The translations under genes and the position numbers were made by a program. A model generated the notes under the pieces. That model ran no database searches. It was not told where the DNA came from and saw only the letters and a list, made by a program, of their open reading frames with translations. 64,000 nt of DNA from Pseudomonadota bacterium. GTDB lineage: Bacteria > Pseudomonadota > Gammaproteobacteria > Burkholderiales > Burkholderiaceae_C. The stretch spans positions 124,001 to 188,000 of the forward strand of contig CAUJHV010000029.1 in assembly GCA_963205115.1 (NCBI GenBank), written 5' to 3'. Shown piece by piece: positions 13,636-16,104 of the stretch (its first letter is position 1; the number at the start of each line of letters is the position of its first letter).

Positions 13636-13700
13636 CTCAAGTCGCCACGCGGCCGCGTGCCGCAGTCCCGTGCTCAGGTCGCCACGCGGCCGCGTGCCGC
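13636..13700. repeat. two 28-bp direct repeats (13636-13663 and 13673-13700), 27/28 identical, each containing palindrome CACGCGGCCGCGTG
   Basis: ctcaagtcgccacgcggccgcgtgccgc / ctcaggtcgccacgcggccgcgtgccgc. Confidence 0.95.
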
Positions 13701-14162
13701 CTTGTGCAGCAGCTCCAGCAGCATCAAGCGCTCCGCCACGCTCAGGCGCGACACGGCCTGCGTCTCGGCCTCGCAGATGCGCGCGGTGGCCTCGTCGACC
13801 ACCTGGCGGCCGGCGGCGGTGGTGCGGATACGCAAGGCGCGACGATCGCTGGCGTGCGGCTCGCGGTCGACAAAACCGCGGCGCATCAGGCGGTCGATGC
13901 AGGCCGTCATGTGCGGCGCGGATACCGCCAGCGCGGTGGCCAGCTGGGTGGCCGTGAGGCCTTCGTTGTGGCGCACGAGTGCCAGCGCCGTGTACTCCAG
14001 CTGGCGCAACTGATGCACCGCAGCCACCTGCGTCTCGAAGACCACGTTCGTGACCACCGAGACCTGCGCCAGCTGGTAGCCCAGCACGCCGGTGAGCGCA
14101 CCTTCGTCCAGCCGGGCGGCGGGAGTCGAGCGGGCTTCCGCGAGCGGCGGCACTTTGTTCAT
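13674..14162 (-). CDS. MarR family transcriptional regulator
   Basis: 162 aa; LALVRHNEGLTATQLATALAVSAPHMTACIDRLMRRGFVDREPHASDRRALRIRTTAAGRQVV. Confidence 0.88.
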   Translation of the reverse strand: MNKVPPLAEARSTPAARLDEGALTGVLGYQLAQVSVVTNVVFETQVAAVHQLRQLEYTALALVRHNEGLTATQLATALAVSAPHMTACIDRLMRRGFVDREPHASDRRALRIRTTAAGRQVVDEATARICEAETQAVSRLSVAERLMLLELLHKAARGRVAT

Positions 14163-14367
14163 CGGGTGATTCTGACCGATGCCGGCGAGGCGTCCCGCGC
14201 GTCGGCACCGCCGGGACTGCGGTTCACCGACTTAGTAAAACCACGGAATCATTCCTGTTGCAATCTACCTAGTATCTGGCTCCTGCGATTGGACAACTGG
14301 TTCAGTCGCCTAACCATATAGACCAGGCCAGCGACGCCCGCAGGCGCACGGCCGGACAGGAGACACG

Positions 14368-16104
14368 ATGCCCAGCGTTCCCTTCAACGACCGGCCGGCC
14401 ACCTGGGTGGCCAGCGCCTTGGTGGCGACGCTGGCCGCCGGCTGCGGCGGCAGCGACGACACACCGGCGCTGCCCCGCCTGGCGGCCGCGCAGGCCGCCG
14501 CCCTGTCCGGTACCTGCGAGGCGCTCGCGGCCAAGCTGGCCGGCCTGGCCGACACCACCATCACCGCCGCCACCACGGTGGCTGCGGGCAAGGTCAGCAA
14601 CGTCGATTCCCCTGAACACTGCCGCGTCACCGGCGAGATGTTCAAGCGCACCAGCGCCGTCGACGGCCGGTCCTACGCCATCGGCTTCGAGATGCGCCTG
14701 CCCAAGGCCTGGAACGGCCGCTACTTCTACCAGGGCAATGGTGGCATCGACGGCGCGGTCGTCGCGGCCGCCGGTGCCCTGGGCGGCGGGCCGGTCACGG
14801 GTGCGCTGGCGCAAGGTTTTGCGGTGATGAGTTCCGATGCCGGCCACAACAACGCCACCAGTGCCGGCCCGGCGTTTGGCATCGACCCGCAGGCACGTCT
14901 GGACTACGGCTACCAGGCCTCGGCCAAGCTGCTGCCCACGGCCAAGGAAGTCATCCGCCAGGCCTACGGCAAGGCACCGGACCGCCTCTACTTCGGCGGC
15001 TGCTCCAACGGCGGGCGTCATGCGCTGGTCGCGGCCGCGCGCTACGGGGACCAGTACGACGGCTTCCTCGTCGGCTCACCGGGCTTCAACCTGCCCAAGG
15101 CCGCCGTGGCCAACATCTTCGGTGCGCAGCGCTACCGCACGGTGTCGGCCGATCCCACCAGCATCACGGCCGCCAACCTGGCCACGGCCTGGACCACCGC
15201 CGAACGCGCGCTGGTCTCGGCCGCCGTGGTGGCCAAGTGCGACGCGCTGGACGGCGCGACGGATGGCCTCGTGCAGGACACCGCGGCCTGCCAGTCGCGC
15301 TTCAACCTGCAGACGGATGTCGCCACCTGCACCGGCGCACGCGACGGCACCTGCCTGAGCGCCGCACAGAAAGCCGTGGTGGCCGACATCTTTGCCGGCG
15401 CCAAAACCAGCGCCGGGCTGCCGATCTACGCGAGCTTCCCGTTCGACAGCGGACACGGCACGGCCGGCGTGGCGAGCTGGGAATTCAACGCGCCGCTGGA
15501 CCGCGATTCCGGCGCCGTGGGCTTGATCTTCAAGGTGCCGCCGCTGGCAGGCAACAGCACGGCCGATCAGCTGGCCACCTACGTGCTGACGGCCTCGGTC
15601 GACACCATGTTCCAGGAGATCTTCGCCACGAACGCCACGTACACCGAGTCGTCGATGAGCTTCATGACGCCGCCCGACGCCACCAACCTGGGCAAGGTGA
15701 AGAACCGCGGCGGCAAGATCCTGGCCTACCACGGCGTGAGTGACGCGATCTTCTCGGTGAACGACACGCAAGCCTGGTACGACGGCCTGCGCACGGCCAA
15801 CGGCGGCGACGCCAGCAACTTTGCGCGCTTCTTCCGCGTGCCCGGGATGGGCCATTGCAGCGGCGGCCCGGCCACCGACCAGTTCGACATGCTGAGCCAA
15901 CTCGTCGCCTGGGTGGAGCAGGGCACCGCGCCCGACAGCGTCGTGGCCAAGGCCCGCGGCACCGGCAATGCCGGCGGCGTGAATGCCGACCTGCCGGCCG
16001 CGTGGTCGGCCACGCGCAGCCGTCCGCTGTGCCCCTACCCGCAGGTCGCCCGCTACAAGGGCACCGGCGACATCGAAAGCGCGGACAGCTTCAGCTGCCA
16101 GTGA
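14368..16104 (+). CDS. tannase/feruloyl esterase family hydrolase, MHETase-like, probable exported protein
   Basis: LYFGGCSNGGRHALVAAARYGDQYDGFLVGSPGFNLPKA nucleophile region; VPGMGHCSGGPATDQFDMLSQLVAWVEQGTAPD; RPLCPYPQVARYKGTGDI. Confidence 0.9.
   Translation: MPSVPFNDRPATWVASALVATLAAGCGGSDDTPALPRLAAAQAAALSGTCEALAAKLAGLADTTITAATTVAAGKVSNVDSPEHCRVTGEMFKRTSAVDGRSYAIGFEMRLPKAWNGRYFYQGNGGIDGAVVAAAGALGGGPVTGALAQGFAVMSSDAGHNNATSAGPAFGIDPQARLDYGYQASAKLLPTAKEVIRQAYGKAPDRLYFGGCSNGGRHALVAAARYGDQYDGFLVGSPGFNLPKAAVANIFGAQRYRTVSADPTSITAANLATAWTTAERALVSAAVVAKCDALDGATDGLVQDTAACQSRFNLQTDVATCTGARDGTCLSAAQKAVVADIFAGAKTSAGLPIYASFPFDSGHGTAGVASWEFNAPLDRDSGAVGLIFKVPPLAGNSTADQLATYVLTASVDTMFQEIFATNATYTESSMSFMTPPDATNLGKVKNRGGKILAYHGVSDAIFSVNDTQAWYDGLRTANGGDASNFARFFRVPGMGHCSGGPATDQFDMLSQLVAWVEQGTAPDSVVAKARGTGNAGGVNADLPAAWSATRSRPLCPYPQVARYKGTGDIESADSFSCQ

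Follow-up and report, generated by a model that had tools for sequence, protein, structure and literature searches.

Introduction

The tannase and feruloyl esterase family (PF07519) includes the mono(2-hydroxyethyl) terephthalate (MHET) hydrolase of Ideonella (Piscinibacter) sakaiensis, MHETase (PDB 6QZ1-6QZ4, 6QGA), as well as the fungal feruloyl esterases FaeB of A. oryzae (PDB 3WMT) and FaeC of Fusarium oxysporum (6FAT, 8BHH). In MHETase, Arg411 holds the MHET carboxylate and is itself positioned by Ser416 and Ser419 (Palm et al.). Most of the 6,671 family sequences considered by Knott et al. are less than 53% identical to MHETase, Glu is less frequent at position 226 than either Thr or Asn, and a Gly-Gly pair at the oxyanion hole is the norm (PMC7568301). 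Here we examine a member of this family encoded at positions 14368-16104 of a 64,000-nucleotide stretch of contig CAUJHV010000029.1 (assembly GCA_963205115.1), the whole of which we call the window. A preliminary description of this gene had presented it as a tannase-family esterase closely resembling MHETase. Judged by phylogeny, the window protein belongs to a separate and common branch of the family, a cousin of MHETase. We favour, with a probability of about 0.68, the reading that it is a MarR-regulated, secreted hydroxycinnamoyl (feruloyl-type) esterase.

Family assignment and predicted fold

The plus-strand interval 14368-16104 is exactly one open frame of 578 amino acids with an ATG start. 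Its product matched the Pfam Tannase profile over positions 1-489 of 490 with a score of 438.9 bits against a cut-off of 29.8 (E 3e-131), and this full-length match bears out the proposed family. MHETase was the top solved relative by sequence (phmmer E about 1e-105), with 39.4% identity over 526 amino acids. It was also the closest solved structure by fold: the AlphaFold model (predicted local distance difference test score 88.9, predicted template modelling (TM) score 0.89) had a TM score of 0.82 to MHETase, compared with 0.67-0.70 for the fungal feruloyl esterases and 0.68 for A. oryzae FaeB in particular. No equivalog for the window protein was found in NCBIfam. The window protein is a real, ordinary, full-length member of a known family.

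The sequence blocks on which the comparison with MHETase had been built (GCSNGG, DGFLVGSPGFNLPKA, YHGVSDAIFSVNDT, VPGMGHCSGGPATDQFDML, RPLCPYPQVARYKGTGDI and LAAGC) are all present, and the PF07519 and phmmer scores place the likeness beyond chance. The resemblance holds in so far as MHETase is the closest solved structure, but it does not amount to a special closeness, because the blocks are family-wide, the protein falls in a distinct clade, and 39.4% identity is ordinary in a family most of whose sequences lie below 53%. The nucleophile loop GCSNGG, which had been singled out as a departure from the GCSEGG of MHETase, is likewise an ordinary family state (PMC7568301). The features of the gene are listed below, placed by alignment unless another source is given.

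14368-16104, plus strand: tannase/feruloyl-esterase family (PF07519) alpha/beta-hydrolase, 578 amino acids (Pfam profile, phmmer, AlphaFold model)
14358-14362, plus strand: ribosome-binding-like site AGGAG, 5 nt 5' of the ATG (sequence)
14368-14445, plus strand: signal peptide with lipoprotein-type box LAAGC (amino acids 22-26), Cys26 being the putative lipidated residue (sequence; orthologue alignment)
14740-14745, plus strand: oxyanion-hole Gly125-Gly126, equivalent to MHETase S131-G132 (alignment; PMC7568301)
14998-15015, plus strand: nucleophile loop GCSNGG (amino acids 211-216) with Cys212 and catalytic Ser213 (MHETase C224 and S225); N214 corresponds to MHETase E226
15478-15543, plus strand: shortened lid segment W371-P392, lacking the MHETase Q410-R411...G414 stretch
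15502-15507, plus strand: R379 and near-invariant D380, in the MHETase F415 and S416 columns
15742-15744, plus strand: catalytic Asp459 (MHETase D492)
15853-15858, plus strand: catalytic His496 and Cys497 (MHETase H528 and C529), the latter in the active-site disulfide with Cys212

In the alignment to MHETase the Ser-Asp-His triad (S213, D459 and H496) and the adjacent Cys-Cys pair are intact, and D292, D295 and D299 supply the aspartates of the calcium site. Ten of the eleven cysteines (50, 85, 212, 291, 308, 321, 329, 497, 555 and 577) match those of the five family disulfides, all of which are present and invariant or nearly so in the orthologue alignment. The eleventh, Cys26, lies in the lipobox-like site that had already been remarked upon, is conserved in 90% or more of the aligned orthologues, and probably serves as a lipid anchor. 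The window protein thus shares with MHETase the PF07519 fold, the triad, the five disulfides and the Ca2+ ligands, together with the lid Trp, the active-site Phe and the lipoprotein-type N-terminus. With FaeB and FaeC it shares the family, the catalytic disulfide and a feruloyl-esterase-type architecture, but these proteins are fungal, only 22-23% identical in structural alignment (TM about 0.67-0.70), and have lids that are hard to align.

A common clade that excludes MHETase

We calculated two maximum-likelihood trees, of 62 and 64 rows, with a divergent paralogue from the window's genome as outgroup and the fungal PDB chains left out. In both, the window protein fell within a clade of 39-40 rows (support 100/99 and 100/100) with MHETase outside it. 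The branching of MHETase beside this clade varied between the two trees; its exclusion was constant. The proposed special closeness to MHETase is therefore contradicted by the trees. The clade draws its members mainly from Burkholderiales and comprises Comamonadaceae, Sphaerotilaceae, Oxalobacteraceae, Burkholderia and some Gammaproteobacteria. Relatives at E <= 1e-60 occurred in 80 of 251 family-sampled genomes and in 56 of 141 genera.

Two observations concern MHETase itself. Outside the window clade it pairs with L066 (also L183; G372:C2:456634-458190), the nearest non-identical relative found for it, at 51.5% identity, which keeps Glu226, has Lys in the Arg411 column, and is a candidate for activity on MHET or a related ester. 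A genome of another genus code (G402; L065/L188 at G402:C1:1288000-1306000, L190 and L194) encodes a 99.5% identical MHETase, whose gene adjoins genes for a Rieske dioxygenase and a PdxA-like dehydrogenase; with five PETase-family proteins above the cut-off, this genome holds a second full gene set of the poly(ethylene terephthalate) type.

The lid segment and the MHET carboxylate site

We aligned 172 sequences with L-INS-i, among them 129 relatives at least 50% identical to the window protein. MHETase columns 410-412 were gapped in all 129, in agreement with the earlier remark that the lid holds no equivalent of Arg411, and columns 413-414 were gapped in all but one to three. The S416 column was Asp in 128 of 129 relatives (D380 in the window protein), while the F415 column held Leu in 75 and Arg in 51 (R379 in the window protein). 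At the MHETase 226, 416 and 419 sites the window protein has N214, D380 and A383 rather than Glu, Ser and Ser, and MHETase S131 is replaced by Gly. An acidic residue near the carboxylate-binding site suggests that MHET is not the ligand; D380 would probably suit a phenolic hydroxyl.

Pairwise phmmer alignment offered R379 as an equivalent of Arg411. This candidate was rejected, since the family alignment assigns R379 to the F415 column of a shorter segment in which most relatives have Leu, as does the closest relative (77% identity). With the loop shortened, sequence alone cannot settle where R379 may lie.

These data bear directly on whether the window protein is a genuine MHETase, or a hydrolase of another terephthalate monoester, which we consider very improbable. 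MHETase is the closest solved structure, its F495, W397, H488, L254 and F424 columns are conserved in the family alignment, and the E226T variant of MHETase retains about half of its activity, so that a change at site 226 is not disqualifying (PMC7568301). Set against this are the missing Arg411 segment, the acidic residue in the S416 column, the separate clade, and a catabolic gene context of the orthologues that points elsewhere. The window's genome, in an assembly about 90% complete in which absences are provisional, also differs from the MHETase setting in that tph genes were not found. The best match to the PETase family reached 23.2 bits against a cut-off of 28, and the best match to the large subunit of terephthalate dioxygenase (TphA2) was a partial one at 28% identity and 34 bits, the query being the gene beside MHETase in G402, taken as TphA2 from its position and its Rieske/ring-hydroxylase domains. 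Hydrolysis of MHET is on record for PET46, a feruloyl esterase with a different fold, and for PET46 homologues (PMC13292399), and for this reason the window protein may have weak side activity on MHET; MHET as its natural substrate is disfavoured.

Paralogues in the window's genome and in Ideonella sakaiensis

The window's genome encodes four PF07519 paralogues, counting the window protein. The others are:

G000:C70:92376-94010 (L002)
G000:C62:7820-9466 (L003)
G000:C29:230167-231612 (L004)

Of these, the C70 protein resembles MHETase more closely (44% identity) than the window protein does (39%); its residue at position 226 is Gly, and His occupies the Arg411 column. Four paralogues in one genome, in a family that holds bacterial homologues of unknown function (PMC7568301), would fit a broad carboxylesterase that accepts other aromatic or lignin-derived esters and has no one substrate in nature. 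Among the 129 relatives, however, a shaped lid and Asp380 are strongly conserved, which points to a defined ligand, and we give such a broad enzyme very little weight.

Ideonella sakaiensis 201-F6 (G113) served as an internal control. Its genome encodes a MHETase 100% identical to the reference and eight PF07519 proteins in all, on contigs C6 (two), C30 (two), C36, C59, C79 and C104 (loci L203-L207, L186, L187 and L179). This count runs counter to the statement of Palm et al., who reported finding no tannase or feruloyl esterase sequence homologous to MHETase in I. sakaiensis. Two of the eight fall in the window clade, one on C30 (62% identical to the window protein; contig NZ_BBYR01000030.1, about 50.5-52.2 kb, L142) and one on C59 (L187, 57-60%); each has a MarR gene in divergent orientation and the same lid-loop deletion as the window protein. 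The window gene thus has an orthologue (62%) in I. sakaiensis that is distinct from MHETase.

Gene neighbourhoods of the window gene and its orthologues

Two features lie immediately 5' of the esterase gene:

13674-14162, minus strand: divergent MarR-family regulator that probably controls the esterase (PF01047/PF12802; orthologue loci)
14163-14367, no strand: MarR-esterase intergenic region of 205 bp, the presumed site of the operator and the two promoters (position)

An inverted-repeat search of this intergenic region and those of three relatives found no shared palindrome as a MarR operator. On the 3' side the esterase gene is followed by a glycogen phosphorylase gene on the opposite strand.

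We surveyed 82 orthologue loci, which are not independent observations. A PRK12582-type acyl-coenzyme A (acyl-CoA) synthetase, at least 40% identical to the reference, lay 0.2-5 kb away in 42 of the 82. PRK12582 proteins are presumably feruloyl-CoA-synthase-like. For a gene picked at random, the expected frequency of such a neighbour is about 0.6%, given two strong copies in a 6.1 Mb genome and an 18 kb stretch. At the same cut-off a crotonase was found in 30 loci and an acyl-CoA dehydrogenase in 25, and many loci also held genes for an aldehyde dehydrogenase and for TctC-family or Peripla_BP_6-family solute-binding proteins. Two loci, of Massilia and Burkholderia anthina (L105 and L173), were checked for a p-hydroxycinnamoyl-CoA hydratase/lyase (PRK09120); the matches, at 494 and 496 bits, were far above the cut-off of 276. 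A divergent MarR gene within 600 bp was found in 18 of the 82 loci, in addition to the window. The locus of the closest relative (L189, 77%) carries in a row, within 6 kb, a divergent MarR gene, a VanB-like reductase, a VanA-type Rieske oxygenase and a PRK12582-type synthetase.

In that locus the VanA-type oxygenase is split over two overlapping frames (L189:12087-13114, minus strand; VanA_C matched over 1-62 of 193), possibly through a frameshift or sequencing error. In six Pseudacidovorax loci (L133, L136, L150, L151, L162 and L168) a TctC/Bug-type binding protein is flanked by two PF07519 esterases of the same cluster.

The window's genome has two PRK12582-type synthetases (720 and 678 bits), one of which lies on contig C14, clustered with an acyl-CoA dehydrogenase (58%) and a crotonase (61%).

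Proposed function

The strongest competing explanation is that the window protein hydrolyses hydroxybenzoate or gallate esters, as a true tannase or depsidase would, so that the acid set free is not a cinnamate but gallate, protocatechuate or 4-hydroxybenzoate. Asp380 would be compatible with phenolic acids in general, MarR is the only relevant neighbour in the window, and just one of the 18 loci with a divergent MarR gene also has a synthetase nearby. That one locus, however, is the closest relative, MarR-type and synthetase-type loci are intermixed within the clade, and roughly half of the clade has a CoA-synthetase/crotonase neighbourhood, which suits C6-C3 acids. We therefore regard hydrolysis of hydroxybenzoate or gallate esters as unlikely, if the most serious of the alternatives.

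We favour the hydroxycinnamoyl esterase, in which the window protein would most likely be a secreted, probably lipid-anchored hydrolase of feruloyl, p-coumaroyl or caffeoyl esters, that is, of esters of plant hydroxycinnamic acids. Such a function probably agrees with the earlier suggestion that the enzyme may hydrolyse an aromatic ester related to MHET. As a serine esterase it would attack the ester through Ser213-His496-Asp459, with backbone groups of Gly126 and Asn214 holding the oxyanion and with the Cys212-Cys497 disulfide clamping the nucleophile and the histidine. The lid would close over the aromatic ring, and Asp380, at the distal end of the pocket, would probably meet a phenolic hydroxyl rather than a carboxylate. 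The divergent MarR protein would probably induce the esterase upon sensing the aromatic acid or its CoA thioester, and the released acid would enter a CoA-dependent hydroxycinnamate pathway.

Several points weigh against this assignment. Among the expected context genes only MarR is present at the window locus, the CoA-pathway genes being on other contigs, and the orthologue loci do not count as independent cases. The PRK12582 matches scored 680-718 bits, below the model cut-off of 777, and the model is a subfamily model; for these reasons the label feruloyl-CoA is a tentative choice from the possible aryl acids. The window's genome yielded no p-hydroxycinnamoyl-CoA hydratase/lyase that scored over the family cut-off, so a hydroxycinnamate route there would be beta-oxidative. 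Finally, no published assay of any bacterial member of the window clade was found in the open-licence literature, and the substrate is read from sequence and gene context.

Significance for the family

The analysis keeps a common enzyme class from a plastic-monomer-hydrolase label based on family-wide motifs, and it supplies a concrete substrate prediction for a widespread and apparently unassayed clade. The I. sakaiensis genome itself holds relatives of MHETase without the Arg411 segment. A more doubtful idea, to which we attach little probability, is that the window clade keeps a relative, lacking the loop, of the lineage from which MHETase arose, with the lid loop and Arg411 as a possible switch between phenolic and terephthalate esters, or else that the window enzyme hydrolyses MHET by way of Arg379. 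Were this true, the MHETase lid loop and Arg411 would be testable as a specificity switch in the organism's own paralogue.
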